Positions 7,063 to 23,649 of a stretch of 23,649 bases of DNA are shown piece after piece (within the stretch, counting starts at the first letter, position 1; every line of letters begins with the position of its first letter). This stretch comes from a virus, in the IMG/VR virus record IMGVR_UViG_3300020220_000341, positions 1-23,649 of that record. One strand, given 5' to 3'. The translations under genes were made by a program, and so were the position numbers. Below the pieces are notes generated by a model. It made no database searches, was not told where the DNA came from, and worked only from the letters and a program-made list of their open reading frames with translations.

Positions 7063-7063
7063 T

Positions 7064-8857
7064 ATGGGAGTATCTCTTTCATCTTTAACAGAAAAACCAA
7101 ACACAAGTGTTGAGTCGAGTGATATTTTCCTAATATCAAATTCAACCTCCACACAAAATAATAAAATAACCAGAGATGAATTGTCTCAATCTTTTACAGG
7201 CTTTACGGCTCAAACTAACGATGGTTTTACGATTTTTGAATCTGCTGGAGCTATCGGTCTCTCAGTAAGTGGATCAAATGGTTTTGTGGGAATAAACGAT
7301 AGAACTCCAGGAGTTTCATTAGATGTTGTTGATGTTCCAGGCGCAACTTTAGGTTTAGGTCAAATAAGAATTAGTGGCGCTGCTGCTAGAAAAATTGGAA
7401 TATCTATTACAGATCCCAGTGTTTATTATCAATTTTCTAAAAAACCAAACGATACAAAATTATATTTAGAATCTTCAATAAATGCTGGCGCTAGTTTTAC
7501 TAATTTAATGGCGATTGATCAAAGCGGTAATTTTGCAATTCATGGTACTACTGGAGCTTTAACTAATAAATTTTTAGTTAGTGGTGAATTTATTGAATTT
7601 CAAAATTCAGGAAACGCTTTGGTTTTTGATCCATACAATACAGAAATAAAAACAAGCGCAAACGATGAAACTTTATTTTTAAATTTTAATAACATAGGCG
7701 ATCTTAATTTAGGTAAAAATGCAATATATATAGATAATGATTCAGTTGCTCCTAAAATAGGTATAGGTCATATTATTCCTGCTTATACAATGCATGTAAG
7801 CGGTACTGTTGCTCAAGTTAGTAGATTTCAAACAAATAAACCAAATACATTTTTAAGTTTAAGAAATGCTACAAATATAAATTACTTTGGTCTTTCTGTA
7901 AATAAAACATTTATTGGTCCACATCCCGTTTTATCGACTAACAATGCAATCATAGATGCTGTAGGAAATTTTGGTTTAGGTACTACTGGTCCTCAATTTC
8001 AATTAGATGTTGTTACTGATGGAATCTCTGAAAATACTGTAGCATCATTTCAAAGCACAAATATACAAGGAACTACTCAAATAGTTATTGCAGCAAATAA
8101 AGATGCATCTTTAGATCCGACGCCTACTAGAAATAGTTTACTTACTTTTTCGCGTTATGATGCCGCTATAAACACTCCAAAATGGTCAATCGGTAATTTA
8201 TATAATGATGGCGCATTAGGAATAAATGATAATGATTGTTTTGTTTTTGTGAAAAATGGTTATTTTGGAGCAAGTCCAGATGTTGTTGCTAAATTGACTA
8301 GCGCTGGAAATTTAGATATCGATGGCAGTTATACTACAAATGGAGGTTATTCCAAGGGTAAATTTATTCAAACATATCAAACAAGAGTAACTGGTACTGA
8401 TATTTATTTTAGTCCGATTGTTCCTGATTCTGATTCTATTCCAAGCGGAAATAATTCTGATCATGCTCCATTTACTATTACTCCATACGATGGATCTATT
8501 GAAAGAATTGCTTTATTTACATCTGATCAAAATGCATTATCAGCCGATTATCGATTTGAAATATCAGTAATCACTCCGACATACAACCCAGCAGTTCCAA
8601 CAAAATTCGTAACTGGATTTTTCGTTAGTCCTCCATCTGATCCAGTATCTTATCCTGTAAGTGGAATAATCGGTGCGACATATTTTAATACTATAAATCC
8701 AAATATTATACAAATAAAAAACAAATCTAATATAAGCGGATCAACAGCATTTTCTTCAGGTCGATTAATTCAATATAGATTGTGTGAAGGAAATGGCACA
8801 AAACCAGATTCTGTTGATTTTACAATTATATCTACGATTGCATATACTATAAATTGA
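7064..8857 (+). CDS. Putative tail fibre protein (597 aa)
   Basis: The N-terminal part (SLSSLTEKPNTSVESSDIFL) resembles the attachment region of many phage fibres. The shaft then carries recurring beta-structure signatures of the G-I-G-x-x-x-P-x-x-x-L-x-V type: GFVGINDRTPGVSLDVV at about 72-88, KIGIGHIIPAYTMHVSG at about 231-247 and NFGLGTTGPQFQLDVV at about 302-317. A looser copy ends in GNLDIDGSYTTNGGYSKG near 415. These signatures are common in fibres of aquatic phages, often with an S74 intramolecular chaperone at the C-terminus. I see no chaperone motif here; instead the last 170 or so residues look like a compact beta domain. It starts one base after the previous stop and overlaps the next start by one base (TGATG). 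A receptor-binding role is likely but unproven. Confidence 0.65.
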   Translation: MGVSLSSLTEKPNTSVESSDIFLISNSTSTQNNKITRDELSQSFTGFTAQTNDGFTIFESAGAIGLSVSGSNGFVGINDRTPGVSLDVVDVPGATLGLGQIRISGAAARKIGISITDPSVYYQFSKKPNDTKLYLESSINAGASFTNLMAIDQSGNFAIHGTTGALTNKFLVSGEFIEFQNSGNALVFDPYNTEIKTSANDETLFLNFNNIGDLNLGKNAIYIDNDSVAPKIGIGHIIPAYTMHVSGTVAQVSRFQTNKPNTFLSLRNATNINYFGLSVNKTFIGPHPVLSTNNAIIDAVGNFGLGTTGPQFQLDVVTDGISENTVASFQSTNIQGTTQIVIAANKDASLDPTPTRNSLLTFSRYDAAINTPKWSIGNLYNDGALGINDNDCFVFVKNGYFGASPDVVAKLTSAGNLDIDGSYTTNGGYSKGKFIQTYQTRVTGTDIYFSPIVPDSDSIPSGNNSDHAPFTITPYDGSIERIALFTSDQNALSADYRFEISVITPTYNPAVPTKFVTGFFVSPPSDPVSYPVSGIIGATYFNTINPNIIQIKNKSNISGSTAFSSGRLIQYRLCEGNGTKPDSVDFTIISTIAYTIN

Positions 8858-9666
8858 TGAGTAAATTCATTAAATATGAGAATTTAGATTTTAGAATAAA
8901 CAATGATGTTTTTTATTCTACATCAGTAGAAATTTCTTTGCAATCAAGTATAGAGCCAGTTTTATTATCAGATGGATCTTTATTGCGATACGCTCCTCAA
9001 GGAACTGTGGTTGGTAGTTTGAATACAGAATTTTTTTTGACAGGCGCTTTTCCTAATTATTTAAGCCCGACAACAGTCTCAGAGTCTCCTATAAACGCTG
9101 TGTTTGCTGGAGTAAATATACAAAACTGTTACTTAAAAAGTATATCTTTTCAAGCTTCTCAATTTTCTCCTATTTCTATAAATGCTGAATTCGAATGGTA
9201 TGGACAAATAAACGCAGAAGACAGCACTAATGATTTAAAAGCATTTAGAACAAATATAAGAAATAGCGCCTTGGATAATATTTCTCATTCAAATAGAACT
9301 TATATATCTGATATAACAAATGTCTTTGGATTTTCAGAAATATTCAGTTTTCAATATTCAGAACAATGCAATCGCGCTCCTTTTTTTAAAAACGATGAGA
9401 TCGTACCATTCAGAGTAGCAAAAACTAATAAAACAAAAAATGTAACAGTAGATGGTAACTTTTTTAAACAAGTAAATGTTTGCGATATAGAAGGCAAAGA
9501 TTCTGTTTGCGAATTATTTTTGAAAGATTATAATAATAATATATTAAATACTTTTTATGTTACTGGTAAAATAGAATCAAGAGGTTTATCGGCTACTAAT
9601 AATGGCATTTTACAAAGCAAATTATCTATCATGCAACGTTTAGCGCCACTTAGGAGTACATTATGA
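8857..9666 (+). CDS. Putative tail-tube-like protein, likely paralogue of the 316-aa product (269 aa)
   Basis: I place the start at ATG 8857, which overlaps the upstream stop as TGATG. The TTG at 8854 would add a single residue and is less likely. The product begins MSKFIKYENLDF. It is beta-rich without membrane segments, with SIEPVLLSDGSLLRYAPQG near 30-50, a SxxxEFFLTGAFPNYL block, and CYLKSISFQAS followed by ISINAEFEWYG at about 90-120. The order and spacing of these blocks follow the 316-residue protein two genes upstream. Both are therefore plausibly tube-fold proteins stacked as rings between tube and tip. A good Shine-Dalgarno for the next gene lies within its 3' end. Alternatively it is an unrelated tip scaffold protein. 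Confidence 0.55.
   Translation: MSKFIKYENLDFRINNDVFYSTSVEISLQSSIEPVLLSDGSLLRYAPQGTVVGSLNTEFFLTGAFPNYLSPTTVSESPINAVFAGVNIQNCYLKSISFQASQFSPISINAEFEWYGQINAEDSTNDLKAFRTNIRNSALDNISHSNRTYISDITNVFGFSEIFSFQYSEQCNRAPFFKNDEIVPFRVAKTNKTKNVTVDGNFFKQVNVCDIEGKDSVCELFLKDYNNNILNTFYVTGKIESRGLSATNNGILQSKLSIMQRLAPLRSTL
9652..9656 (+). promoter_or_regulatory. Shine-Dalgarno AGGAG for the gene at 9663
   Basis: AGGAG lies six bases upstream of the ATG at 9663 and inside the end of the previous gene. It is the only clear Shine-Dalgarno sequence in front of any start in the window, and it supports that start together with the ATGA overlap. Confidence 0.55.
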
Positions 9667-11666
9667 GTAAATTTTTAGACACTCAATTTTCAGTAACAGG
9701 TATAAAAAATTTTGAAACCACCAATTCTTATTTAAAATATGATTTGGTTGATTTTGAATATTATACTGGAGACAGCGCATCTCCAATAAATTTGTCAGGA
9801 TTGTTTGCGTGGTTCAATTTAAATGATTTGAATAATTTAGAGTTTGATTCTAGTGGTAAAATTTATAAATGGTATAATTCTGCTCCTGGTCATGAGATTG
9901 CTCAAGATTTAAATAATACTAGTACAAGTCAATATTATCCTTCTTACAATCAAAATAAAAATTGTATTACTTTTAAAGCTGATTTAGAAAATTTTGAATT
10001 TAATAATTTATTTACTACTGGTAATGGTTTTGTTGGTTTTTTGACTGGAGATCGTTGTTGGTTTGTTGTTTACGAGTTTGACAATTTAAGGCGAGGCGAT
10101 TACGGTTATCCAATAAAACCTAATATAGCAAGTATAATTGATACAGATTTATACTCCGCTTCAAGATACCCCACAAATTGTGCAAGCAGTGGATTCTTAG
10201 GAGTTTCAGGTAATACTAATATATACAAATGGGATTCAAATACTTCTCTTGGCTCTCAGCAATTTATAATCAATGCAACAGGAAGCGCAGAAAATAATCC
10301 ATTAAATGTAAATTCAGCTTTTTCCGCTTCTAAGGTACTAAATAATAAGAATATTGTTTCTATTATAAAAAATGATACGACAAATAATTTAAGATTAAGA
10401 AATAATGGATACGAATTATTAAACATCAATAGTACAAATCATTTCAATTCTGGATGCAGTGGTTTAATGATAGGTGCCGCAAATAACAATCATCCTTCTG
10501 AAAATGCTTCCTTTAATTATGATAGCTCAGATATTTCTTATTATGAAATATTAGGTTTTGCCAAAGTTCCAACTGACCATGATATATTAGCCATAGAAAA
10601 ATATCTTTTTGAAAAACATTTTACAAATGATGATGGTTTATATATTTCAACATCTAATTTTACTGCTTCTGATTATCGTTATGCTCCTATAAATATAACA
10701 GGATCAGAATATTTAACTAAGAATATAGATTCTATTTTTAATAAAACATATGGTTGTTCTGTTAATTTTAGCACCAAATCTCAAAGAATTGAATACGGAG
10801 ATAATTATGTAATAAATGTTATTCCAAATATTAATAATTTACAATCTCAATTTGATTTATCTTATGATGGATTAACAGATAAAGAGGCAAAAGCTTTGAT
10901 AGGATTTTTTCAAAATACTTTTGAATATACACCAAAAACTATATTGGATTCTTATGAAAATGTAAAAATAGATTTATTCTATCCTTACACAAATAACGCA
11001 AAAATATATTTTTCTGATTTACAGTATAATTCAGTAGAAGCCAATTTAAATAAAATAAATATAAAATGCGTTTCGAGTTATGATTCTAATTTAAATTATA
11101 AAGGTTTTTTCATTACTGGTGAAAATGTGTTAAAACCGTTTGTGGAAAATTCGCGTTATTTTTATAATGATGTTGTTTATTACGATTCAACTGTGTCTAG
11201 TGTAAAAGGATTTTATTGGTTTACTGGATCTAATAATACATTTACAGATCATACTAAAAGCCCAACTGGTGTAAATTCTTTATTTACTAGAAAATTTTAT
11301 TTTAAACCTGACTTGAATTTTGAAATGCCGATGTCTCCAAAGTTTACAAAAACAGAATTTGAAACTTCAGCGGCGGCTTATGAAAATTACGGTATCAATA
11401 AAACTTTATTAGATTTTTCATTTAGTTTTAATAACAGAGACGATAAAGAAGCGTTGGCGATATTAAAATTCCTTGATTCAAACGCTGGTTTTAAAATTTT
11501 TGAAACGACATTGCCAGAACCTTATAATAAATTAATAGATGTTTATTGTCCAGAATGGAATCATACTTATAAATTCAAAAACAATCATGATATATCGGTA
11601 AAATTTATAGAATTCAAAGGTAAAACAGATTCTGATATATATTTTAATACTCTATTACAATTATGA
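9663..11666 (+). CDS. Tip protein with two gpM-like minor tail domains and a LamG-like insert (667 aa)
   Basis: Two regions match the lambda gpM (Phage_min_tail) pattern of a beta strand, then an L-T-D-x-E-A helix, then a target-like strand region. The first is at about 361-475 (DLSYDGLTDKEAKALIGFF followed by YTP). The second is at about 558-655 (FSFNNRDDKEALAILKFL followed by CPEWNHTYKF). An N-terminal insert at about 38-325 reads as a LamG/ConA-like lectin: AWFNLNDLNNLEFDSSGKI-YKWYN near the start, a WFVVYEF strand, and the closing helix SYYEILGFAKVPTDHDILAI then EKYLFEK. Segments at about 20-35 and 485-550 (NSYLKYDLV and SRYFYNDVVYY) resemble CBM5/12-type aromatic patches. Lambda gpM has 109 residues and one domain. 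In lambda, gpM sits between tape measure and gpL; here the gene has the same relative position. It overlaps both neighbours by four bases (ATGA). Binding to host glycans is inferred. Confidence 0.7.
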   Translation: MSKFLDTQFSVTGIKNFETTNSYLKYDLVDFEYYTGDSASPINLSGLFAWFNLNDLNNLEFDSSGKIYKWYNSAPGHEIAQDLNNTSTSQYYPSYNQNKNCITFKADLENFEFNNLFTTGNGFVGFLTGDRCWFVVYEFDNLRRGDYGYPIKPNIASIIDTDLYSASRYPTNCASSGFLGVSGNTNIYKWDSNTSLGSQQFIINATGSAENNPLNVNSAFSASKVLNNKNIVSIIKNDTTNNLRLRNNGYELLNINSTNHFNSGCSGLMIGAANNNHPSENASFNYDSSDISYYEILGFAKVPTDHDILAIEKYLFEKHFTNDDGLYISTSNFTASDYRYAPINITGSEYLTKNIDSIFNKTYGCSVNFSTKSQRIEYGDNYVINVIPNINNLQSQFDLSYDGLTDKEAKALIGFFQNTFEYTPKTILDSYENVKIDLFYPYTNNAKIYFSDLQYNSVEANLNKINIKCVSSYDSNLNYKGFFITGENVLKPFVENSRYFYNDVVYYDSTVSSVKGFYWFTGSNNTFTDHTKSPTGVNSLFTRKFYFKPDLNFEMPMSPKFTKTEFETSAAAYENYGINKTLLDFSFSFNNRDDKEALAILKFLDSNAGFKIFETTLPEPYNKLIDVYCPEWNHTYKFKNNHDISVKFIEFKGKTDSDIYFNTLLQL

Positions 11667-14365
11667 CTTATGTCAATCTAACTGGGAAAAATATTGGAGA
11701 ATGTCTTACTGGTTTTGGCATTAATTATCCAATTACTATATTTAATAGTGGTAACTCTGATGTTGCATATCAATTTGAAATTGAAAATGATGCCAACAAT
11801 TTCTTTTCTCTTTCAACTTCAAATCTTCTTTTAAATAATGGTCAGAGTGGAAGTATTGATGTTTTATATTGTCCACCACAAACCTCTCCAGCAGGGAATA
11901 ATGATTGTGACATTATTATATCAAGCGAGTCTATTGAAGACGGAAGTGTAGATCCAAGTGGAAATATAACAATTGAAATAACAGGATCAAAAATAGTAAA
12001 CACTACTGGAGGTCATATTAGAAATTTTGTAGCATTGAAGAATTACGACGCTAAAAATGGTCTAAATTATGATTTTAGATGGTTCGCTCCAACAGGCACA
12101 GGAAATTTAAAAAATTATTTTTTTACTGGTTATAGATTAGATATAGCTACAAATACTGATTTTTCGAGCCTTGTTCATAGAGAAGATATAAGTATAGCTC
12201 AAAACACAAATGATAAACCTAGATTTTCTACGTTTTATGGCTACGAAGAAAACGATTTGATTATAAAAAATATAAATGAATTTAATTATCCAACTACTAA
12301 TCCTATAAAATTAGATACTGATTACTACGCTCGTTTATATACAAATAGTTGTGGCAATAGTGGTATAAGTATTTATGCATCTGGTATTGATACTTTGAAT
12401 GATACTGTATCAAACGAAGTGTTTGTGGGTTATTCAGGCGCGACAAGACCAAATATAAAATTCAATAAAAAAACTTTAGAAGTCATAATTCCACAAAGCG
12501 CACAATATGAAAATTTTGATTTATTCAAAAAAATAAAAGAGTATAATAACGGATCTGATAATCTAAGTTTTTATTCTGGTATTAATGTTTATTTAAGTGA
12601 GGGTTCTCGTTTTTATTCTTCGGCTAGTGATAAATATGCAATAAATTTGCTTGGCCTATTCGAAAATTTTACTGGTAATAATACAGATGGTACAGTTGTT
12701 AATTTATATGTACCTCAAAATGTTTTTATTTTTGGTAATCAAGGAAAAGGTGGTGATATATCTAATATATTGCCACCAGCGTCTAGTGATGGTAATGCTT
12801 TTTCTTTAGTGGAAATGTTTGATGCGAGTAATTATGCTAAGAGTTCTACTAATGGATTAACAGATAGTCAGCCTGGTGGAAATGTTTTTGATTTATCTTT
12901 AACAACTTTTGCAAATAATTTGTTAAGACAAGATTTGATTTACAACATATACATTCAAAAAAATACTTCTATAGTATCTGGTGGAGGAGGTAATAAAGCT
13001 GGTTTTGCGTGTGTTGGACTTACTAATCAAAAGCAACTCGTTATCGGAACAGGTTCTGACTTAATAGAGAGAAAGGTGGCTTTTCCAATTGCAGGTGCAA
13101 ATAATAAAACAAATCCCTATTTTCTTTTAAAAGATCCCAGACGTTTAACTTTGGATAATTTAGCAAAACTTATATCACCATCTCCTGAATTTGGAGAAGA
13201 CGCAGTTGACAATATAGTATTATATGATTTTAAAACAAATCAATATTTTACAAATAAAAATACAATACCGTATAGTGATAAATATATTAGTTTGAACTCT
13301 CAACATAATAACTATACCAGTATTAACTATAAAAGTTTTTCATTGATACAATATACACAAACCATGTTCATCACGCTTAATGGTAATCCTCCTTCATTGT
13401 GTGGAAAACTTATTAATAAATTATCAAATTCTACTGTAAAATTAAATTTTTATAATGATAATATATCTACAGATTATGTATTTAGATTAAATAATGCAGA
13501 TTTAAATACTGGTCCTGTATCATGGTTAGGTAAAAATAGTGCTGGTGCAACAATAATAACTTTAAACACATCAGTTGCTGCGCCAGAAATGGTGGCGAAT
13601 TTCAGATCATTAGGATATAAATCTTTGAAATTGCAATCGGGCCGTTCATTAAAAGGAGAATTTTCTTCAGATATTTTTGCAACAGATTTTGATTTATTTA
13701 TTGTAGGTGCTGTAGAAGGTGCAACTGAAAATACATTTAATCCAAATACCTCTTCATTTTTTAACTGGTATAAGAATAGCGCTACTGGATATGATAAGAT
13801 TACAAATATAATATTAGAACTTTTTAGAACAAGTGTTTATAAATCTTTTTCTAAAGAACCGAATGTTTTTACATTTTTTTTCCCTTTGTTGTACAATGAA
13901 ACTTTAAGCTCTGCTACCGCAATAAATTTTTATGACGCAAGAAATGAGACTACTGCTAAAGCTTTACAAGTATCTAAACAATTAAACTCGTCAATTTTGG
14001 GTGGTAGTTATTATCCTTTTATTCTTAATATACAAAGAGAGGGTCAATATTATTCTATATACATAAATGGAAATTTAGTTTCTAGTTATTCGTTACCAGT
14101 TTTACAAAGTTATTTAACAAATTTAAAGAATACATGTTTTGATTTATCAAATATTCCATTAACTGGCGGCACTTCAAGTATAAATAATTTATATTTTGAT
14201 GCTATTTTTTACAATAGAGTTTTATTTAATACTGAAAGAGTTCAAATGCTTAATGCATTGTCAAAAACTTATCTTAAGCTTTTTAGTGGATATACTGATT
14301 CTTCTTTACTATTAAACAACAGAATACAATTGCCTAATAATTTTAATATCGCGGGTAGAATATAA
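11663..14365 (+). CDS. Multidomain tip adhesin with ASH-like Ig, FN3-like, glycine-rich and LamG-like parts (900 aa)
   Basis: There is no single family match by eye; the domains can be read in order. Residues 1-112 look like an ASH/Hydin-type Ig domain: conserved YPITIFNSGNSDVAYQFEI, then NNGQSGSIDVLYCPP. Residues 115-262 resemble an FN3 unit (DFRWFAPTGTGNLKNYFFTG, later TDYYARLYTN). Residues about 340-450 have two strand-plus-glycine turns (YVPQNVFIFGNQGKGGD; IYIQKNTSIVSGGGGN) like those in glycine-rich phage adhesin tips. Residues about 641-874 end as a LamG-like unit, with YYSIYINGNLVSSYSLP and a closing segment YFDAIFYNRVLFNTERVQML. No enzyme motif or membrane helix is seen. It lies between the gpM-like and gpL-like genes, where lambda has nothing, so it is an addition to the tip. 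The start overlaps the previous stop by four bases. Receptor recognition is the likely role. Confidence 0.5.
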   Translation: MTYVNLTGKNIGECLTGFGINYPITIFNSGNSDVAYQFEIENDANNFFSLSTSNLLLNNGQSGSIDVLYCPPQTSPAGNNDCDIIISSESIEDGSVDPSGNITIEITGSKIVNTTGGHIRNFVALKNYDAKNGLNYDFRWFAPTGTGNLKNYFFTGYRLDIATNTDFSSLVHREDISIAQNTNDKPRFSTFYGYEENDLIIKNINEFNYPTTNPIKLDTDYYARLYTNSCGNSGISIYASGIDTLNDTVSNEVFVGYSGATRPNIKFNKKTLEVIIPQSAQYENFDLFKKIKEYNNGSDNLSFYSGINVYLSEGSRFYSSASDKYAINLLGLFENFTGNNTDGTVVNLYVPQNVFIFGNQGKGGDISNILPPASSDGNAFSLVEMFDASNYAKSSTNGLTDSQPGGNVFDLSLTTFANNLLRQDLIYNIYIQKNTSIVSGGGGNKAGFACVGLTNQKQLVIGTGSDLIERKVAFPIAGANNKTNPYFLLKDPRRLTLDNLAKLISPSPEFGEDAVDNIVLYDFKTNQYFTNKNTIPYSDKYISLNSQHNNYTSINYKSFSLIQYTQTMFITLNGNPPSLCGKLINKLSNSTVKLNFYNDNISTDYVFRLNNADLNTGPVSWLGKNSAGATIITLNTSVAAPEMVANFRSLGYKSLKLQSGRSLKGEFSSDIFATDFDLFIVGAVEGATENTFNPNTSSFFNWYKNSATGYDKITNIILELFRTSVYKSFSKEPNVFTFFFPLLYNETLSSATAINFYDARNETTAKALQVSKQLNSSILGGSYYPFILNIQREGQYYSIYINGNLVSSYSLPVLQSYLTNLKNTCFDLSNIPLTGGTSSINNLYFDAIFYNRVLFNTERVQMLNALSKTYLKLFSGYTDSSLLLNNRIQLPNNFNIAGRI

Positions 14366-14369
14366 TAGT

Positions 14370-15419
14370 ATGAATACATTATTCAAATTAAATAATTATG
14401 TAGTAATAGATTTGTTTGAAATAGAACTTGAATCAAATGAAGGATATTTAAGATTTCATGGGTCTAAAAATTTTGATAGAAACATAATATTCCAAAATAA
14501 AGAATATATTTTTATTCCGTGTGAATTCAATGATTTTCAAACCACTTCTGATGGTAGACAGGCTAGACCTAGATTAAAAGTTGGAAATATAAATAATTAT
14601 TTTTCTAGAGTTTTACAAGATCGTGGAGATTTGATAGGTAAAAATTTCAATAGAAAAAAAATATTAGCCAAGGATTTAGACGCTATAAATTTTACAGATG
14701 GTAAAAATCCGTTCGGAACTTCATTTTTTAATACTTATATATCTTTTGATAAATTAATAGTAAATGCTAAATTAGGTGAAAACTTGAATTTTGTCGAATT
14801 AGAGTTGGTAACAAAAGTTGATTTAGAAACTCTGTCTGTTCCAGCAAGAAAAGTTACTAATGATACATGTTCGTGGAATTATAGATGTTATGGTTGTAAC
14901 TACGGTAATAACAGAAAATATGAAGGGCCAACAGATATAAATGCAAAAATTTCAGCACCTTCTGGATCAGATCCTACTTTTAATAAATTCTTAGGAGTAC
15001 CAGTAGCGGACGAAAATGATAAAGTATTTATACAAAATTATAGCAGTTTTTCAAATAATGGCAACTATGAAATATCATCATTAAGATATAAAGGTGAATG
15101 GCTATCTACTGTTTCTTATTCAGTAGGTGACTTTGTTTATATAGATGCATTATCCAACACGAACTTAGAATCAGATGAATCAATTTTATCACCTTTGATT
15201 CAAAATAAAAACTATTTTGTTTGTGTAACTGCGAATTCAAATAAAAATCCTATAAAAAATACTAATGTTTGGAAGCAAGATAAATGTTCAAAAACGCTTC
15301 AAGGTTGTATGCTAAGATTCGGAAACAATACTACAAACGCATTTACAAATGGTAAACCGTTTTTACCTTTTGGCGCATTTCCAGCAACATTTCCATTCAA
15401 TAATGATACTAACGTCTGA
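14370..15419 (+). CDS. Lambda gpL-like minor tail protein with CBM5/12-like insert (349 aa)
   Basis: The family is recognised by its cysteine pattern. C167, C173 and C176 lie in TCSWNYRCYGC, and C306 and C313 in DKCSKTLQGCMLRFGN. The second block is almost identical in form to the end of lambda gpL, for which iron-sulfur cluster binding has been reported. The N-terminal half (VVIDLFEIEL, then FIPCEFNDFQTTSDGRQARP) fits the gpL hub-connector domain. Between the two cysteine blocks, residues about 235-303 form an extra module: GEWLSTVSYSVGDFVYIDA, then YFVCVTAN and a Trp before the second block. This is the W-x(n)-Y-xxGDxV-x(n)-Y-C-x(n)-P-x(n)-W arrangement of CBM5/12-type carbohydrate-binding domains. 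Lambda gpL has 232 residues. It overlaps the next gene by 17 bases. It probably bridges tube and central hub. Confidence 0.85.
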   Translation: MNTLFKLNNYVVIDLFEIELESNEGYLRFHGSKNFDRNIIFQNKEYIFIPCEFNDFQTTSDGRQARPRLKVGNINNYFSRVLQDRGDLIGKNFNRKKILAKDLDAINFTDGKNPFGTSFFNTYISFDKLIVNAKLGENLNFVELELVTKVDLETLSVPARKVTNDTCSWNYRCYGCNYGNNRKYEGPTDINAKISAPSGSDPTFNKFLGVPVADENDKVFIQNYSSFSNNGNYEISSLRYKGEWLSTVSYSVGDFVYIDALSNTNLESDESILSPLIQNKNYFVCVTANSNKNPIKNTNVWKQDKCSKTLQGCMLRFGNNTTNAFTNGKPFLPFGAFPATFPFNNDTNV

Positions 15420-15741
15420 AATACTTGATGAAATTAAAGATTACGCTTTAGAAAATAAAGATATAGAGGTTTGCGGTTTTGTTGTTAAAAATAATGAACA
15501 AATAATATTTAAGCCGATTGCAAATAATCACCCATCAAAAGAATCTTTTTTTCTTGTTTCTCCAAAAGAGTATCTTGAAATAAAGAATAAGTATGAGATA
15601 TTATATTTGTTTCATAGTCATCCGATTGGATTTGATTTTTCAGAAATAGATTTAAAATATCAAAAATATCATAATATAAATATGTTATTATTTATAGTAC
15701 CATTGCAAAAGTTTATAGAAAAGCGTGTAAATACAATATGA
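15403..15741 (+). CDS. Lambda gpK-like tail protein, JAB/MPN (JAMM) domain only (112 aa)
   Basis: This is a putative Zn-dependent JAMM peptidase-fold protein of the tail tip. E22 (IEVCGFVV), H71, H73, S80 and D83 give E...HSHP...SEID. The two histidines and the Asp are the usual Zn ligands and the Glu the catalytic base. Six residues separate H73 from S80, whereas the textbook motif has seven. I start at ATG 15403 because the domain begins there (MILTSEILDEIKDYALENK) and the overlap with gpL is then 17 bases. ATG 15349 would add 18 unlike residues. Lambda gpK carries a C-terminal NlpC/P60 peptidase domain; this protein stops right after the JAMM fold, and no NlpC/P60 Cys/His pattern appears in its neighbours. 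Whether it is active is unknown. Confidence 0.82.
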   Translation: MILTSEILDEIKDYALENKDIEVCGFVVKNNEQIIFKPIANNHPSKESFFLVSPKEYLEIKNKYEILYLFHSHPIGFDFSEIDLKYQKYHNINMLLFIVPLQKFIEKRVNTI

Positions 15742-15742
15742 T

Positions 15743-16303
15743 ATGGTAAATATTAAATTACATGGAGTTTTTGAAAGTTTTGTCAAAACAGAATGGTCGT
15801 TGAATGTTAAAACAGTTGGAGAAGCTTTTGAAGCTATTGAAGCTAATACTAATAAATTGGTAGGCGCTTTAGGAACAATTCAAGAGTATTTAAGTCATTT
15901 TATTATATATGTAGATGATAAAATTATGTCTCCTGAATATTTGAATTCTCCAATATTGAAAAAAAATTCTGTGGTTGAAGTCGTTCCATTGATTTTGGGT
16001 GCAGAACTAAGTCTATTTGCAATGTTTATTATTATGTTAATAGCTATGGGAATTCAAATGCTTATCACGCGCTTGTTAACTCCAAAAGCTCCGAAAGATA
16101 TTAAAAATAATTCAAGAATGTTTTCTGCTTATGAAAATGTAACCAAAAGAAACGTGGCGGTGCCGATTGGTTATGGAAGGTTAAAAATTGGAAGCGTGTT
16201 AGTTTCAAATGATTTGATAACAACAAGTTTAGTAAATCAGGGTTCTGGACTTTCAATTCCAATTTTTGGAGGTGGAGGTCGTGGTGTAAGAGTTGTAAAA
16301 TAA
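15743..16303 (+). CDS. Lambda gpI-like tail assembly protein (186 aa)
   Basis: Residues 1-82 form a small alpha/beta, ubiquitin-like unit (MVNIKLHGVFESF at the start; FIIYVDDKIMSPEYL, then VVEVVPLILG). A strongly hydrophobic segment follows at about 88-112 (FAMFIIMLIAMGIQMLI). The C-terminal part contains VAVPIGYGRLKIGSVLVSND at about 139-158, the signature seen in lambda gpI and its relatives just after their Gly/Ala-rich membrane-like segment. The protein ends in GGGGRGVRVVK. Gene order gpL-gpK-gpI-gpJ is exactly that of lambda. In lambda, gpI is needed for tip assembly and is not a major part of the finished virion; I assume the same here. It starts one base after the previous stop. Confidence 0.85.
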   Translation: MVNIKLHGVFESFVKTEWSLNVKTVGEAFEAIEANTNKLVGALGTIQEYLSHFIIYVDDKIMSPEYLNSPILKKNSVVEVVPLILGAELSLFAMFIIMLIAMGIQMLITRLLTPKAPKDIKNNSRMFSAYENVTKRNVAVPIGYGRLKIGSVLVSNDLITTSLVNQGSGLSIPIFGGGGRGVRVVK

Positions 16304-16317
16304 TAATTTATTTTCAT

Positions 16318-19300
16318 ATGAGTTTATCCAGAGAAAACATAGCTAGAATTTCAGAAGGCGGCGGTTTAACTAACGAACGTGAAGACTTTGGCTTAAACGT
16401 TGGTGGGAATTATGTAAGCACTGAAGTTTCTATACCAACAAATACACAAACAGCTACATCATCTACAACAACCAGTCAAGCTGCAAAAAGTGATGTATCA
16501 ATATATTTAAATACAAATAATTCAGCTATAAGTGCAGCTGGATTTGCTGGGGATAGAGCTAGAAATAACACTTTAGATACAGAAACTTCGTATTACGCTA
16601 ATGATTTATTGTGCGAAGGTCCAATAGAAGGTTTAGTAGACAGTGATGGTAGTATTTTAAATTATATAAGTGTAAGTGATACGATTTCAAATAGAGCGTC
16701 TTCTTTGTCGTATGGAATATATTATAATGATAGTCCAGTAAGAGATAAAAGAACAAGTTTTTTAAATTTTTCTTCTGTTAACTTTAATATATCTTTAGGA
16801 AATGAAGTTGAAAATACAAATTCTAAGTCAAGCGCAGTTTATAAATACGATTCTAAAATTTATGATTTAGAAAGAACTCCTAATGATATAGTTTTTAAGA
16901 ACTATCAATTCGATGAAAAAAATTTTACAGATGGCACTAATGATTCAGTTGAGCGTGGTTTGATAAGCGCTCGTCTTTTGGCAAGAAATTTTTCTCATTA
17001 TATAAAAAACAAATACGTTACTAGCGCAACTGTTAATATCAAGGTTGATAATCTTTTTTTTATTGGCGGCAAAGGTGAAACTTTTAGTAATCATTTACGA
17101 TTTGTAGTTTGCGTCTCAAACCTAAATAGTGGAATAAGATTTTATTATTTTTTTCAAGGCTATTTTGTTGTAAAAGGCAGTCCATCAATGATACCTATTG
17201 AAATACAGTTTTCTAAAAAAACCGATTCTAAAGCCGCAAATAACGAATATATTATAAATGTTTATAGTGTAGAAAAAAGATTATCAGTTACTAACGAAAA
17301 TGAGTCTAATTTCGTAAAAGAGTTCTCTGTTGATAGCGTTATAGAAAGGGTGGATTATTCTTTTTCATATCCATATTCTGTTGTTTGTGAAAATATAATT
17401 AGCGCGAAACATTTTTCTTCTGTTCCAGTAAGAAGTTTTGATTGTAAACTTCTAAAAATTAAAGTTCCTGATATTTATGACGGTGATATAAGAGAGTATA
17501 ATGGTGATTGGAGTGGTAATTTTAGTAAAACTTTAAAATGGACAGATGATCCTGCTTGGATTTTTTACGATTTATGTTCGAATGCCAGATATGGTTTGGC
17601 AAAAAGTTTCATGACTGAAAATGATTTGAATAAATGGGACATGTTGAAAATTTCTAAATTTTGCAATGAATTAGTTATTACTAACGCTTCGACAAAATAT
17701 GTAGCAAACTCTTTTGATTATAATAATAACATAAACAATACTGAAACAGATTTTAACACTATTACTTTTACATGGACTGACACTTTGCAAAAACTTCAGC
17801 AAGTTTATCCAGAAAAAAGTTTATTGTTTTTATATGATGTAAAAAACGAATTTAATGAAAATATAAAAATAAATTTTAAAAAAATAATACTTTCTACAAC
17901 TTTAGTCGGTAACAAGGCTAAATTGAAATTATGTAATGATTTCGGAGTTAGAAGTTTTATTGAATCAGATTTAAATGGTAAATTTTATAAAGCTTTACAA
18001 TCTTATGTAGGAGGCAACCCTGCGATATTAAATACTGAAGAAAAAATAAAAGAATACGCTCTCAATTATGTTTCTCAAAACATAGTTGCTGGAGTTGCGA
18101 ATGTCAATGAAGGAATATCTCAAAAAGTATCAAAAACTAAAATATTTGATTCATCTTTAAAAATTAAATCAGGAAAATGTGTAGCTCGTCATCATGGTTA
18201 TTTTGACTTTCTAGAGCCTCGTTTTTCAGCAAATATATACATAAATGATGTCACTGAAGGTTTGAAAATTCTTTCTGATATGGCATCAATTTTTAGAGGT
18301 GTTTTTTATTTTAGAAATGGTCTTCTTAATTTAACTATCGATGTAAAAAAACCAGTTGTTTATGTTTTCACAAATTCAAATGTAAAAGATGGCCTTTTTG
18401 ATTACGCTTCAGCAAATAAAGAAACTTCTTTTACAGTTGTAAAAGTATCTTATCTTGATAAAACAGATAATTTTAAAGATAAAATCATATATGTTGAAGA
18501 CGGTGAGCTTATAAGAAAATATGGTTTGATTGAAAAAGAAATTTTAGGTTTTGGAATTACTTCTAGGTATCAAGCAGAAAGAATAGGAAAATGGTTTTTA
18601 GCCACATCTAAATTAGAGTCTCAAACAGTTTCATTTGCGACGGGAATTGAAGCTACAAATTTAAAAGTAGGAGATATAGTAAGAGTAGCCGATAATTTGA
18701 AATTTAACGATCAAAAATTTGGAAGAGTAACTTCTTTGGATTTTAATAATAATTATATATATGTTGATAGAGAACTTGGAGAAGATATTCTGGGCAAAAA
18801 AATAAAATTATTTTCTATAGTAAATGAAGAACCTTTAGAAACAACTTTGACAATTTTTGAATTTAATAATGCAGAATTAAGATTGAAAGTTTTGCCGAAA
18901 TCATTTATATCTTGGAATTTAATATCCAAAACATCTTCTACTGATGATGGTTCTGTGGTTTTTGGAGACAGCAGTGGTAGTGCTAGTTGGACGAGAAAAG
19001 CTTACACAAAACAAAGTTATACAGAAAATTGTCAAATATCTTTTAAAATTTTTTATGTTGACGTTCTTTTAGCATGTGGCTTAAGTCAAATAAATGATCC
19101 TACACTTGATCAAACAGATATCGACTATGGTTTTGAAGTCGATTCAAGTAATAACTTGTATTATAGAGAAGATGATACTCAAACTTCATTTGGCAGAACA
19201 ATTACAAAAGACGATGTTCTAAAAATAACTTTTGATGGCACCAAGATTAAATATTTTTTAAATGATTTATTTTTGAGAGAAACAAGTCGTTCGATTGGTA

Positions 19301-20004
19301 ATCCTTTGTATGGAGTTGCGGCATTTAATACACCATATGCGAGAATATACGATGTAGATTTTACACCTTATCCTGAAATAAATTATGGTAATTTTGCTAA
19401 TTTAAGATCAGACGCTAATTTTTCAATTAGTTTACGAGAAGACATTAATGATGAAGATCTATACAGAATAATAACGATAACAGAGACTTCAATAAATGAA
19501 TATAATTTATCTTTGATGCGCTTCAGTAATCAAAAATTTGATTTTGTTGACGAAGATTCTTTTATTGATAAAAAACAAAATAATAAAAAACAAATAGTGT
19601 TTTCAACAGATGATTACATTAGACCAGCTTTGACTGATCTGCAAGTGCAAACAGGTTTAATTTTTTCAAATATGTCTTATGTTCAAGCTGTATCTACTGA
19701 TTTTGATTATACATTTTATATAGAAAAAGAAGTTTTCAACACAGATTTTGGCGCTTTGATTTATGAAGCTGTAGCGCTGAATTTTATACAATACTTTGAT
19801 TCTTTGTCTAATAATTCTAACGTGTTCGGTTTGTATTGCAACATAATAAAAGATGGCAAAATTTTAAAATTTAAAGTTTATAAGGATGAGGCCAGTAAAA
19901 TAACAGTATTTTTAGGAGAAAAAAGGGAAGGTGTTCAAACTTCAATTTCTTTTGATATAGATTTGTATGCTTTTGATAAAAACATGCGTTTAATAAATGT
20001 GTAA
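16318..20004 (+). CDS. Lambda gpJ-like central tail hub/tip attachment protein with lectin-like insert (1228 aa)
   Basis: The product is the hub of the tail tip and, in lambda, the host receptor binder. Family marks are LLCEGPIEGLVD at 97-108, and VPDIYDGDIREYNGDW followed by DDPAWIFYDLCSNARYGLA at about 383-427. A third is SRYQAERIGKWFLA with NLKVGDIVRVAD at about 750-793. Lambda gpJ has 1132 residues. Residues about 862-1020 look like an inserted ConA-like lectin: VVFGDSSGSASWTRKAY, LLACGLSQ, IDYGFEVDSSNNLYYRED, then VLKITFDGTKIKYFLNDLFL. The C-terminal 200 residues return to a gpJ-like mixed fold. The FN3 array found in lambda gpJ is not obvious here; an FN3-like unit occurs in the next gene instead. 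There are 14 bases before the start, with an A/T-rich tract and no Shine-Dalgarno. The family call is secure; the lectin insert is inferred. Confidence 0.9.
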   Translation: MSLSRENIARISEGGGLTNEREDFGLNVGGNYVSTEVSIPTNTQTATSSTTTSQAAKSDVSIYLNTNNSAISAAGFAGDRARNNTLDTETSYYANDLLCEGPIEGLVDSDGSILNYISVSDTISNRASSLSYGIYYNDSPVRDKRTSFLNFSSVNFNISLGNEVENTNSKSSAVYKYDSKIYDLERTPNDIVFKNYQFDEKNFTDGTNDSVERGLISARLLARNFSHYIKNKYVTSATVNIKVDNLFFIGGKGETFSNHLRFVVCVSNLNSGIRFYYFFQGYFVVKGSPSMIPIEIQFSKKTDSKAANNEYIINVYSVEKRLSVTNENESNFVKEFSVDSVIERVDYSFSYPYSVVCENIISAKHFSSVPVRSFDCKLLKIKVPDIYDGDIREYNGDWSGNFSKTLKWTDDPAWIFYDLCSNARYGLAKSFMTENDLNKWDMLKISKFCNELVITNASTKYVANSFDYNNNINNTETDFNTITFTWTDTLQKLQQVYPEKSLLFLYDVKNEFNENIKINFKKIILSTTLVGNKAKLKLCNDFGVRSFIESDLNGKFYKALQSYVGGNPAILNTEEKIKEYALNYVSQNIVAGVANVNEGISQKVSKTKIFDSSLKIKSGKCVARHHGYFDFLEPRFSANIYINDVTEGLKILSDMASIFRGVFYFRNGLLNLTIDVKKPVVYVFTNSNVKDGLFDYASANKETSFTVVKVSYLDKTDNFKDKIIYVEDGELIRKYGLIEKEILGFGITSRYQAERIGKWFLATSKLESQTVSFATGIEATNLKVGDIVRVADNLKFNDQKFGRVTSLDFNNNYIYVDRELGEDILGKKIKLFSIVNEEPLETTLTIFEFNNAELRLKVLPKSFISWNLISKTSSTDDGSVVFGDSSGSASWTRKAYTKQSYTENCQISFKIFYVDVLLACGLSQINDPTLDQTDIDYGFEVDSSNNLYYREDDTQTSFGRTITKDDVLKITFDGTKIKYFLNDLFLRETSRSIGNPLYGVAAFNTPYARIYDVDFTPYPEINYGNFANLRSDANFSISLREDINDEDLYRIITITETSINEYNLSLMRFSNQKFDFVDEDSFIDKKQNNKKQIVFSTDDYIRPALTDLQVQTGLIFSNMSYVQAVSTDFDYTFYIEKEVFNTDFGALIYEAVALNFIQYFDSLSNNSNVFGLYCNIIKDGKILKFKVYKDEASKITVFLGEKREGVQTSISFDIDLYAFDKNMRLINV

Positions 20005-20012
20005 AGAATGTT

Positions 20013-23000
20013 ATGGCGTTTATTTCAGGGCTAGCAAGTATTTATACAGATCCGTTTACGATAAAAAATATAGATTTGTCGTTGAATGGTTCTTTTTCTT
20101 CTAAAGATACAACTATAAACGCTGATGAGTTTGGTTACGACATTTCAGTGCCATTCATAAGTGGGTTTTTGGCTCAAAGTCAAATAAATTTAAGTTGGGC
20201 AGTGGAAAATCCAAAAAGTAAAAATTTAATTAATGGTTTTGTTAATGATTCTACTTTTTCAGGATTTCAAATAAATTTTTATAGTACTGGTAAAAATTTG
20301 ATTAGTTCCTTGCCTGAGAGTTTTGCTCAAACTAATTATACTATTGATTCTTCTGATTTATTTGATACTTTTGCTTTAGTAACTGGTTTTGAAAATGTTA
20401 GTAATTTAAATCAATTTTTAATAGAAATAATAAGTAAAGATTTAGAAAACAAAACAAGCACTGGCGTAGCTTTGATAAATTTTGGTGTTCCTTCGGTTAG
20501 CATAAGCGGATACAGCTTAGATACAGCTCTGGCTATTAATTTAGACTATGCAGATTCAAGAATTATAGAATCTTTAGATGTTTTTGTTACTACTGGCACC
20601 AGCTTTAATCCTGATGATGAAAATGATAATTATCTTTTATATAAAAAATATATTTCACCTTCTGTAAATCAAGTTTTTATAGAAGATTTGAATCAGTTAG
20701 GTTCAGATATAAATTTAGATAATGATGTAAGAATTCCTTATTACACTCATTTAATTCCGTATAATTATTTTACTAGTGGAATTAAAGTGGTTTCATCTGG
20801 TATAAAGCCGGGTTCATTTTCTATTTTGGATTTGCCAGAAAAAATTGTTGGTTTAACTGGATATGCTTATTTTGATTTTAATAATGTTTCTAAAGATTTA
20901 AATTTAAATAGTTTTGTAAAATGGAATTCTGTTTTAGGGCCTCAAGATTGTTCTTTTCATATCTTAGTTGAAGAAAGCGGAAAAAATAAAACGAAATATG
21001 ATTATTTTTTAAATAACAGATCTACAGAGAATATAAATGGAATATCTTTTGGAACAGGATCAGGATTAAGTATAACTGGTACTGTTTTTAGTAATTATGG
21101 TTCATCGGGCATTCAATGGTCTGGACACACTTTATATGTTGATAATTTCGGTTCTTTGCCAACAGGATTATATGATCAGTATTCTACGGGTATAAATTAT
21201 ATTACTGAAATAAGAATACCATCTGGTTTCACTGATAATAATGAAATATTTTTATGCTATGGGTATTCGGGTAATAATTGTTTTAAGTTTTTACCATCTG
21301 GTGGTTATTATAGTGGAACGATATATACGGGAACTTACTCTAATTCAAGATTTTTAACAAATACTTCATTAAATAATACAGGATTAACTTATTTAGGTGA
21401 ATATAATACTGGTATTTGCATAGCAAAAAGAATAACTGGATTTGCGGATTTTACATATTCTACAATTGATCCTAGCTTTATATTTCCAATTAACGAAGGA
21501 AATGATTATTTTGTCAAAGTTCGCGCAATAAATTCTGATGAAGTTGTTTCAGAGTTTTCTGATTTATTTTTTATATCTTCAGGGTACATTAATAATATAA
21601 TTAATCTCTCTCCGTTAAGTGGTAAAAAAGTTATTGATGGATCTGGTGTTAGTGGATATATACCAGTATTTTCTGATTCTGACACTTTAACTACAGGAAC
21701 ATTATATTATAGCGGTAGTAATAATATTGTTTTTACTGAATTGCCGACAACTACAAATACTGAAGAATTATTTAAGTTAGTAATTGAAGATAACATAATA
21801 AAAAAACAATTAGATACTGGTAGTAATGATGGAACTGCGTTAATAGATGAGTTTACTCAAAACAATCATGGATTTGCTGTTGGAGACGTTCTTAGATATG
21901 ATGGAACTACTTGGTTCAAAGCTCGGGCAGATAGTGCCGAAAATGCTGAAGTACAAGGAGTAGTAAAAACAATAGTTAATGTTAATACTTTTGAATTGGT
22001 ATACGATGGCTTGATTGATACTTTAAGCGGTTTAACTCCAGGAACAGTATATTTTTTATCAACAATTACTTCTGGAGGGGTTACTTCAGTTGAACCAAGT
22101 AATTTTGGAGAAGTTTCTAAACCTGTTTATTTTGCTTTAACACCAACTAGTGCTAATGTATTAACATTTCGTGGTGTAATAATTGAGCCTCAAAGTGGTA
22201 CTAGCGGAACAAGTGGTTCTAGCGGTACAAGTGGTTCTAGCGGTACAAGTGGTTCTAGCGGTACAAGTGGTTCTAGCGGTACAAGCGGTTCTAGCGGTAC
22301 AAGTGGTTCAAGCGGAACAAGCGGTTCTAGCGGTACAAGTGGTTCTAGCGGTACAAGTGGTTCTAGCGGTACAAGTGGTTCTAGCGGTACAAGTGGTTCA
22401 AGCGGTACAAGTGGTTCAAGCGGTACAAGCGGTTCTAGCGGTACAAGTGGTTCTAGCGGTACAAGTGGTTCTAGCGGTACAAGTGGTTCTAGCGGTACAA
22501 GTGGTTCTAGCGGTACAAGTGGTTCAAGCGGTACAAGCGGTTCTAGCGGTACAAGTGGTTCAAGCGGAACAAGCGGTTCTAGCGGAACAAGTGGTTCTAG
22601 CGGTACAAGTGGTTCTAGCGGTACAAATGGTACAAATGGTTCTAGCGGTACAAATGGTACGTCTGGAACAAGTGGTTCAAGCGGAACAAGCGGAAGTAGT
22701 GGAACAAGTGGTTCTAGCGGTACAAATGGTACAAATGGTTCTAGCGGTACAAATGGTACGTCTGGAACAAGTGGTTCAAGCGGAACAAGTGGTTCTAGCG
22801 GAACAAGCGGAAGTAGTGGAACAAGTGGTTCTAGCGGTACAAATGGCACAAATGGTACAAGTGGTTCTAACGGTGCAAATGGTACAAGTGGTACAAGTGG
22901 TTCTAGCGGTACAAATGGTACAAATGGTTCTAGCGGTGCAAATGGTACGTCTGGAACAAGTGGTTCAAGCGGAACAAGTGGTTCTAGCGGAACAAGCGGA

Positions 23001-23649
23001 AGTAGTGGAACAAGTGGTTCTAGCGGTACAAATGGCACAAATGGTACAAGTGGTTCTAACGGTGCAAATGGTACAAGTGGTACAAGTGGTTCTAGCGGTA
23101 CAAATGGTACAAATGGTTCTAGCGGTGCAAATGGTACGTCTGGAACAAGCGGTTCTAGCGGTACAAGTGGTTCTAGCGGTACAAGTGGTTCTAGCGGTAC
23201 AAATGGTACAAATGGTACAAGTGGTTCTAGCGGTATAAATGGTTCTAGCGGTACAAATGGTATAGAAGGAGGTGTTTTATTTACAGTAACTAGTTCTGGA
23301 TTTAATTATAACATTTCGAATTATGCTGGTAATTTTCCTACTATTACAGTAGTGAGAGGTCAGTTATATTATTTTAATGTTAGTGGTGTATCTACGTCAC
23401 ATCCATTTGCTTTGAGATTATCAAGTGGCAATACTAGTGCTGTACCAGGAACAACAAACAATAATCCTGTAAGTGGACTAGCATCTACAAATACTTTAAT
23501 AATTTACAGAGTTCCAGCAGATGCTCCTTCTAGTATAGTTTACCAATGTGTTCACCATTCAAGTATGATTGGAACTATAAATATAGTCAATCAAAATGGT
23601 ACAAGTGGTTCTAGCGGTACAAGTGGTTCTAGCGGTACAAATGGTACAA
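20013..23649 (+). CDS. Collagen-like tail fibre with cupredoxin domain (3'-partial, 1212 codons visible)
   Basis: The frame is open from ATG 20013 to the window end with no stop. The ATG at 20008 is in another frame and hits TAG within nine codons. Residues 1-470 are beta-rich and not recognised (MAFISGLASIYTDPF at the start). About 470-526 look FN3-like (YFVKVRAINSDEVVSEFSD). Residues 619-726 match a widespread phage fibre domain (NHGFAVGDVLRYDGTTWFKA, then TPGTVYFLS and the end TFRGVII). Residues 729-1083 are 118 Gly-X-Y triplets made of Thr, Ser, Asn and Ala without proline. Residues about 1086-1195 are a cupredoxin-like domain, after which Gly-X-Y repeats resume. It sits right after the gpJ-like gene, the usual place for a receptor-binding or side-tail fibre. 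The role as a fibre is likely; the ligand is unknown. Confidence 0.85.
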   Translation, partial: MAFISGLASIYTDPFTIKNIDLSLNGSFSSKDTTINADEFGYDISVPFISGFLAQSQINLSWAVENPKSKNLINGFVNDSTFSGFQINFYSTGKNLISSLPESFAQTNYTIDSSDLFDTFALVTGFENVSNLNQFLIEIISKDLENKTSTGVALINFGVPSVSISGYSLDTALAINLDYADSRIIESLDVFVTTGTSFNPDDENDNYLLYKKYISPSVNQVFIEDLNQLGSDINLDNDVRIPYYTHLIPYNYFTSGIKVVSSGIKPGSFSILDLPEKIVGLTGYAYFDFNNVSKDLNLNSFVKWNSVLGPQDCSFHILVEESGKNKTKYDYFLNNRSTENINGISFGTGSGLSITGTVFSNYGSSGIQWSGHTLYVDNFGSLPTGLYDQYSTGINYITEIRIPSGFTDNNEIFLCYGYSGNNCFKFLPSGGYYSGTIYTGTYSNSRFLTNTSLNNTGLTYLGEYNTGICIAKRITGFADFTYSTIDPSFIFPINEGNDYFVKVRAINSDEVVSEFSDLFFISSGYINNIINLSPLSGKKVIDGSGVSGYIPVFSDSDTLTTGTLYYSGSNNIVFTELPTTTNTEELFKLVIEDNIIKKQLDTGSNDGTALIDEFTQNNHGFAVGDVLRYDGTTWFKARADSAENAEVQGVVKTIVNVNTFELVYDGLIDTLSGLTPGTVYFLSTITSGGVTSVEPSNFGEVSKPVYFALTPTSANVLTFRGVIIEPQSGTSGTSGSSGTSGSSGTSGSSGTSGSSGTSGSSGTSGSSGTSGSSGTSGSSGTSGSSGTSGSSGTSGSSGTSGSSGTSGSSGTSGSSGTSGSSGTSGSSGTSGSSGTSGSSGTSGSSGTSGSSGTSGSSGTSGSSGTSGSSGTNGTNGSSGTNGTSGTSGSSGTSGSSGTSGSSGTNGTNGSSGTNGTSGTSGSSGTSGSSGTSGSSGTSGSSGTNGTNGTSGSNGANGTSGTSGSSGTNGTNGSSGANGTSGTSGSSGTSGSSGTSGSSGTSGSSGTNGTNGTSGSNGANGTSGTSGSSGTNGTNGSSGANGTSGTSGSSGTSGSSGTSGSSGTNGTNGTSGSSGINGSSGTNGIEGGVLFTVTSSGFNYNISNYAGNFPTITVVRGQLYYFNVSGVSTSHPFALRLSSGNTSAVPGTTNNNPVSGLASTNTLIIYRVPADAPSSIVYQCVHHSSMIGTINIVNQNGTSGSSGTSGSSGTNGT
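22197..23261 (+). repeat. Proline-free Gly-X-Y (collagen-like) repeat, 118 triplets
   Basis: Every third codon is Gly throughout, in one unbroken phase. The basic DNA unit is 18 bases, GGTTCTAGCGGTACAAGT (GSSGTS), with silent variants (GGA, TCA, AGC for AGT) and Asn or Ala variants towards the 3' half (GTN, GAN, SSN). No Pro codon occurs, which is unlike animal collagen and many phage collagen-like proteins. The repeat also creates long meaningless open frames on both strands. Its length is a multiple of nine bases, so unit gain or loss would keep the frame. Confidence 0.95.
22719..23096 (+). repeat. Two tandem copies of a 189-base higher-order unit in the collagen-like region
   Basis: The copies run 22719-22907 and 22908-23096. 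Each starts at GGTACAAATGGTACAAATGG, and they differ by very few bases (for example GGTACA versus GGTGCA near their starts). A third, truncated copy begins at 23097 and diverges after about 50 bases. A shorter 99-base relative precedes them at 22620-22718. The unit is 63 codons, or 21 triplets, so the frame is kept. Confidence 0.85.
23268..23597 (+). other. Cupredoxin-like (type 1 copper) domain within the fibre gene
   Basis: About 110 residues interrupt the Gly-X-Y repeats. Visible marks are the strand TITVVRGQLYYFNVSG, then STSHPFAL with H1130, then PSSIVYQCVHHSSMIGTINI with C1179, H1182 and M1185. The spacing C-x2-H-x2-M is that of amicyanin-type cupredoxins, and the upstream His supplies the fourth ligand. 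All four type-1 copper ligands thus appear present. A similar domain occurs in structural proteins of other aquatic phages. Copper binding itself is inferred. Confidence 0.8.
23598..23649 (+). repeat. Second Gly-X-Y segment running off the window
   Basis: After the cupredoxin-like domain the GGT-ACA-AGT-GGT-TCT-AGC pattern resumes with the same codons and continues past the window edge. The globular domain is thus a bead between two collagen-like rods. Confidence 0.85.

Follow-up and report, generated by a model that had tools for sequence, protein, structure and literature searches.

How does a phage tail tip of the lambda type come to carry extra domains in several of its core proteins, and what might these domains do? 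The question is raised by IMG/VR virus record IMGVR_UViG_3300020220_000341, the whole of which (23,649 bases) is the window analyzed here. Its tail genes all lie on one strand, in the order H, a 316-residue protein, a 597-residue protein, a 270-residue protein, gpM, a 900-residue protein (X900), gpL, gpK, gpI, gpJ, and a fiber, with the tape measure gene (H) truncated at the left contig end and the collagen fiber gene at the right end (Table 1). Pfam, PHROGs, and NCBIfam assigned members of the M, L, K, I, and J families, and by these matches the tip scaffold is of the lambda type (M-L-K-I-J) and belongs to an uncultured long-tailed phage. A sequence-only reading of this DNA had claimed lambda-type genes in order with extra sequence at particular places, and both points were borne out by the PF05939, PF05100, JAB, gpI-like, and gpJ-like matches. 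With a probability of roughly 70%, we regard the locus as encoding a decorated lambda-type tip, in which the ring (gpM) and the hub (gpL and gpJ) carry modules of the lectin, LamG, and SPRY classes as auxiliary host binders.

For comparison, we used 49 related contigs in which the M, L, and J genes are complete and to which the tree adds three cultured outgroups; many of the contigs are near-identical, so that counts among them do not represent independent events. In the window, gpM and gpL exceed their lambda counterparts, as had been claimed (667 versus 109 and 349 versus 232 residues, respectively). In each of the 49 relatives, the same gpM and gpL inserts are found at the same positions, and the cultured outgroups have 0 to 7 residues there, which is more than chance would give. 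Each insert is described below.

The gpM insert occupies one site and comprises 229 to 292 residues across the contigs. The PF05939 domain that marks the family was present in 19 of 19 aligned relatives of gpM. When gpM was modeled by AlphaFold with 19 relatives, region 37 to 320 formed a beta-rich domain, with block means mostly at a predicted local distance difference test (pLDDT) score of 50 to 89. Foldseek returned 140 matches at E <= 0.001, with E values down to 1e-7, and the matches listed are lectin-type jelly rolls. They include clostridial neurotoxins and their companion proteins, matched in their binding domains, as well as a trypanosome sialidase, matched in its lectin domain, and at 8 to 13% identity the likeness is a statement about the fold only. 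A relation to toxins was rejected, as this low identity reflects the common lectin jelly-roll fold. The sequence-only reading had called this segment LamG-like, and with moderate confidence the model likewise assigns it a LamG/ConA-type fold. Laminin_G_3 (PF13385) matched neither the gpM insert nor the gpL insert of clade B described below, even when searched per record, and no informative match came from PDB profile searches with the inserts of gpM, X900, and clade-B gpL.

In gpJ, residues 82 to 826 align with residues 14 to 517 of lambda J (hhalign E 4.9e-64) and residues 1044 to 1088 with about 566 to 610 (E 4e-5). Hub domains HDII to HDIV are present, as indicated by the first of these alignments and by the lambda tip chains heading the Foldseek list of a gpJ fragment. 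The claim that gpJ, too, is longer than in lambda holds for the hub part, which is much longer, whereas the lambda FNIII, central-fiber, and receptor-binding part was not found and the protein ends about 140 residues past the equivalent of lambda residue 610. Since this part is missing and a separate collagen fiber gene comes next, gpJ is an enlarged fiberless hub and not a lengthened lambda gpJ.

Two inserts account for extra length in this hub. Residues 862 to 1025 fall within the position of the lambda OB sandwich (residues 483 to 569), itself an add-on inserted in HDIV (PMC10721106). AlphaFold modeling of residues 630 to 1095 with 26 relatives gave pLDDT values of about 90 to 96 over the insert, and Foldseek with this fragment retrieved the lambda tip, many SPRY and PRY-SPRY domains (TMt 0.6 to 0.72), and CBM66, a carbohydrate-binding module (CBM) family (TMt 0.58). 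PF00622 (SPRY) was not matched at the sequence level, and the sole match in a PDB profile search was SPRYD7 at E 0.12, later borne out by the fold search. We are confident that the modeled insert is a SPRY/ConA-type beta-sandwich, more exactly a SPRY/CBM66-like one; the earlier label of a ConA-like lectin at about 18901 to 19377 was thus right as a fold class. In both proteins on which this fold check was run, gpM and gpJ, the insert covered was modeled as an independent fold (LamG/ConA and SPRY/ConA, respectively) and not as ordinary tip fold. The second gpJ insert (residues 457 to 628) has 172 residues where lambda has 6 and measures 157 to 256 residues in 49 of 49 contigs; library searches returned no family match for it.

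PF05100 and TIGR01600 each match gpL as two stretches flanking an insert, and the family is thus split by it. Cys167, Cys176, Cys306, and Cys313, invariant in 20 aligned sequences, correspond to the lambda iron-sulfur (Fe-S) ligands 173, 182, 205, and 212. Between the cysteine pairs lie two insertion points, one after CNYG...GP, which is short in the window, and the other between GVPVADEN and KDKCSKTLxGC, which holds 83 residues in the window. The latter insert, with the layout W...Y..GDFVY...W, is 83 to 91 residues long in every contig, compared with 7 in lambda. The sequence-only reading had placed CBM5/12-like sequence here, at about 15072 to 15278; the insert is present throughout, but its CBM5/12 identity is weakly supported, with PF02839 matched in 2 of 20 relatives (lowest E 0.042), partially in one contig (E 0.0017), and not in the window. 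At the first point, clade B (e.g., L116, L150, L152, L196, and L200) and contig L203 carry a LamG-like module of about 300 residues. Profile comparison shows the clade-B module to be a homolog of the gpM insert (hhalign probability 94%, E 8.7e-8; unrelated module pairs, E 0.13 to 0.36), and T4-like structural proteins share the C-terminal motif of the clade-B module (E 1.4e-8 by hhalign, across 32 columns). The Fe-S domain of gpL is part of the outer surface in the structure of the lambda tip (PMC10721106). As to gpL itself, the cultured phage of highest identity among the matches listed was Prochlorococcus phage MED4-184 (L267; JF974286.1), in which an unannotated protein of 190 residues is 37.7% identical over residues 4 to 163.

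The survey of relatives that the sequence-only reading had called for revealed both universal and lineage-restricted modules. The SPRY module of gpJ was found in 36 of 49 contigs and is absent from L203 as well as, cleanly and with aligned flanks, from L111 and clade B. As L111 is sister to the remaining clade-A contigs in the tree, the simplest reading is a single gain after the L111 split. The LamG-like gpL module is confined to clade B and L203, whereas the gpM insert, the 80-residue gpL insert, and the second gpJ insert occur in all contigs and are thus taken to be older. Within clade A, mean identity of insert versus scaffold was 57 versus 69% for gpM, 50 versus 71% for gpL, and 42 versus 70% for gpJ; by this measure, each module is less conserved than its own scaffold and evolves faster. 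Together, we show that the extra regions are discrete modules, situated in loops or near the scaffold N terminus and acquired by different genes on separate branches.

The lambda tip is built of successive rings of gpM, gpL, and gpJ (PMC10721106). Given this ring order and the outer Fe-S site, the modules would most simply project outward from ring and hub. CBMs in the "evolved" Dit and Tal proteins of other siphophages bind host cells, with an affinity below that of the main receptor-binding protein (PMC7291167, PMC6669499). By analogy with these proteins, the modules may act as auxiliary low-affinity binders of glycans or proteins at the host surface and may hold the virion while the central fiber finds its receptor. 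The earlier proposal of a multi-ligand platform is supported insofar as the modules are discrete, separately gained, and more variable than the scaffold, and the gpL Fe-S and gpJ OB sites are peripheral in lambda (PMC10721106). To single out parallel insertion as a special system was an overstatement: several tip genes do carry modules, but decorated distal tail and hub proteins are known, and the cultured phages KS9 and PMBT14 also have a fiber-type gene between M and L.

Several points weigh against an adhesive role or limit what can be said of it. SPRY domains often bind proteins, so that a glycan ligand of the gpJ module is not implied; the fold is not sugar-specific. The gpM-like parts of the gpM model score below 50 pLDDT, and where the module sits with respect to the ring is not given by the model. 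Neither Pfam, PHROGs, nor NCBIfam names the gpM and gpL inserts. When genome contigs of 84,980 bacterial and archaeal species were scanned twice, by gpL and gpM profiles, no relative was found, and thus no prophage or host is known; in cultured phages, tblastn found no match for gpM, X900, the gpM insert, or the gpJ insert.

The modules could also be structural, contributing to assembly or stability. They would then widen or brace the tip, for instance by docking X900, the 597-residue protein, or the collagen fiber, without touching the host. Retention of the ring and hub inserts in all 49 contigs fits this explanation, as does the need of X900 and several fiber-like genes for attachment points, and ConA/Ig-type folds are also used as docking modules. 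We nevertheless consider it unlikely, as the inserts are less conserved than their own scaffolds and as some lineages do without the gpJ or the gpL-LamG module although X-like genes stay. Still less probable is that the extra regions are ordinary, diverged parts of the tip fold. Lambda gpJ does already contain inserted FNIII-A and OB domains (PMC10721106), and library searches with the gpM and gpL inserts gave no significant match. Yet the gpJ and gpM modules fold independently in the models, the gpJ module is missing without disturbance of its flanks in L111 and clade B, and the cultured outgroups have next to nothing at the gpM and gpL sites, which largely refutes this explanation for gpM and gpJ and makes it very improbable overall.

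Enzymes, or remnants of enzymes, acting on host surface polysaccharide are a further explanation for some of the modules. The L111 equivalent of the 270-residue protein (L111:8299-9993) has an added C-terminal GDSL-type tail-fiber domain (PF13472 E 0.025; phrog_11419 E 1e-32), and enzymes thus do enter the cassette. None of the inserts in the window matched any enzyme family in the library searches, however, and sandwiches of the SPRY/LamG/CBM66-like kind normally serve in binding when no catalytic partner accompanies them; we give an enzymatic role hardly any credence. Auxiliary host binding therefore remains our preferred reading. In an extended form, host sensing would be spread over the whole tip with a module per layer, the gpL Fe-S and gpJ OB modules coupling contact to hub opening and a two-copy gpM forming a trimeric ring in place of the lambda hexamer. 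This extension is decidedly doubtful.

Table 1. Features of the tail gene cassette in the window
Feature	Position	Strand	Basis or remark
Tape measure protein (gpH-like)	2..6112	+	5' end cut by contig; precedes M; open reading frame (ORF) of 2036 residues
316-residue protein, weakly tail-tube-like	6112..7062	+	PF18906 E 0.012, below cut-off
597-residue fiber-like protein	7064..8857	+	repeated "GIG/GLG...LDV" type motifs, read from translation
270-residue protein	8854..9666	+	conserved in relatives
gpM-like distal tail protein, 667 residues	9663..11666	+	PF05939 E 9.7e-12 at residues 544-650
Putative LamG/ConA-type module, gpM residues 38-325	9774..10637	+	AlphaFold, Foldseek, hhalign
First gpM-like (tail-tube-fold) domain, probable, residues 326-477	10638..11093	+	hhalign with second copy E 8.6e-5, probability 60%
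Small variable domain between gpM-like domains, residues 478-545	11094..11297	+	residues 490-540 pLDDT 63-77
Canonical gpM domain	11298..11642	+	PF05939; lambda gpM hhalign E 6.9e-6
X900 adhesin-like protein (900 residues) between M and L	11663..14365	+	ASH-type Ig, FN3-like region, Gly-rich variable middle, LamG-like C terminus
gpL-like hub protein, 349 residues	14370..15419	+	PF05100 E 3.7e-32, two stretches
Insert of ~80 residues between gpL cysteine pairs, CBM5/12-like (weakly supported)	15033..15278	+	length comparison; PF02839 weak
gpK-like protein, JAB domain only	15403..15741 (likely start 15403)	+	PF14464 E 8.7e-7
gpI-like tail assembly/plug protein	15743..16303	+	phrog_32 E 1.3e-16
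gpJ-like hub protein, 1228 residues	16318..20004	+	hhalign to lambda J
Second gpJ insert, residues 457-628	17686..18201	+	length versus lambda
Modeled SPRY/ConA-type module, gpJ residues 862-1025	18901..19392	+	AlphaFold, Foldseek
Central-fiber-type protein, 3' end cut off	20013..23649	+	N-terminal beta-rich part; collagen-like repeat from 22197, PF01391 E 6e-50
Fiber domain matching PHROG 677 (baseplate/fiber connector)	23265-23594	+	phrog_677 E 6.8e-20

X900 had been described as composed of ASH, FN3, and LamG-like units. The N-terminal ASH/HYDIN-type Ig domain was matched in 22 of 27 relatives; the FN3 region was recognized by eye only, and the LamG-like end motif at the C terminus is weak, its hhalign comparison with other LamG-like modules giving E values of about 1e-4 to 1e-3. 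The middle and C terminus, at 24 to 39% identity, vary more than any other structured part of the cassette. Clade B has two genes in this place and L203 a single one, encoding 1188 residues. In cultured phages, the slot between M and L holds a 602-residue "tail fiber protein" in KS9 and three genes in PMBT14, one of about 400 residues with a T4 gp9/10-like N terminus; because fiber-type genes occur there, an extra gene in this slot is not special. LamG-like sequence is also found outside the tail cassette: upstream of the tail genes and on the same strand, the clade-B phages L210 (G004:C1 32167-35163), L211, and L213 carry runs of small Laminin_G_3 genes, four of them in G004, with E values down to 2.7e-22.

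Three features had been passed over by the sequence-only reading, namely, the insert at gpJ residues 457 to 628, a second gpM-like domain in gpM, and the extra genes between H and M. In gpM, residues 326 to 477 are probably an extra gpM-like copy, as suggested by profile comparison, and the ring could then be a trimer of two-domain chains. The small domain between the two copies has a mean identity of 52%, compared with 68 to 69% in the flanking domains. It was considered as a CBM5/12 domain and rejected, its comparison with the gpL insert not being significant.

The gpM family protein (PF05939 E 9.7e-12) is separated from the tape measure gene by three extra genes. None of these conserved genes (6112 to 9666) was found at the H-M position of lambda. 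Library searches of Pfam and PHROGs returned no noteworthy family match for the 597-residue protein, and comparison of the 316- and 270-residue proteins with each other and with gpM gave nothing convincing. The tape measure ORF is complete in one relative, at 2640 residues. Its N-terminal part contains five spaced GF(I/V)PNF motifs, and exact matches to GFIPNF at the DNA level numbered four in the window and none in shuffles.

Downstream of gpL, the NlpC/P60 domain present in lambda gpK was not found in the gpK of the window, which has about 112 residues from its likely start; reduction to JAB extends across the group (ORFs of 113 to 158 residues). The cupredoxin that had been read in the terminal fiber exists as a domain, but its identity as a cupredoxin drew no Pfam match and no meaningful PDB match, and the domain instead matches PHROG 677. 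The fiber gene was also considered as a counterpart of the lambda gpJ C terminus and rejected, as the two have no more in common than a weak FN3-like stretch (E 0.028).

Compared with the lambda tip (PDB 8iyk/8k35; PMC10721106), the cassette shares the M-L-K-I-J order, the gpM and gpL families, the four Fe-S cysteines, and the gpJ hub domains. It differs in the modules on gpM, gpL, and gpJ, the extra gene between M and L, the JAB-only gpK, and the fiberless gpJ followed by a separate collagen fiber. "Evolved Dit/Tal" siphophages, among them phages of lactic acid bacteria, likewise have CBM-type modules in distal tail and hub proteins, with several decorated virion proteins per phage and shared module "bricks" (PMC7291167, PMC6669499). 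Theirs, however, are galectin-type Dits of Gram-positive phages, whereas the scaffold here is M/L/J, with one insert splitting the gpL Fe-S domain. Alishewanella phage LSH1 resembles our phage in that a galactose-binding-like decoration sits at the N terminus of its gpM-type distal tail protein, but LSH1 has a single fused hub chain (PMC13243795). Its authors consider the gpL C terminus and gpJ N terminus a hypervariable focus adjacent to the cell wall, and neither a gpL LamG nor a gpJ SPRY module was reported for LSH1 or Salmonella phage Jersey (PMC13243795). Burkholderia phage KS9 and Pseudomonas phage PMBT14 share fiber-type genes in the M-L slot but have undecorated gpM (~112 residues) and gpL (~226 residues). 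T4-like cyanophages and other uncultured phages carry ConA/LamG modules in tail or baseplate proteins, there in other structural proteins and not in a lambda-type tip.

Multi-module decoration is thus known from other siphophages, and what is new here is its scaffold, a lambda-type tip including the Fe-S domain of gpL. This domain, on the exterior of the lambda tip, has no known function. With lectin-fold modules between the gpL cysteine pairs and others in the ring and the OB domain, these phages provide a natural series in which to ask about the role of such surface sites. Our survey broadens the "evolved Dit/Tal" idea to include tips of the lambda type and reveals an order of module gains within one gene cassette.

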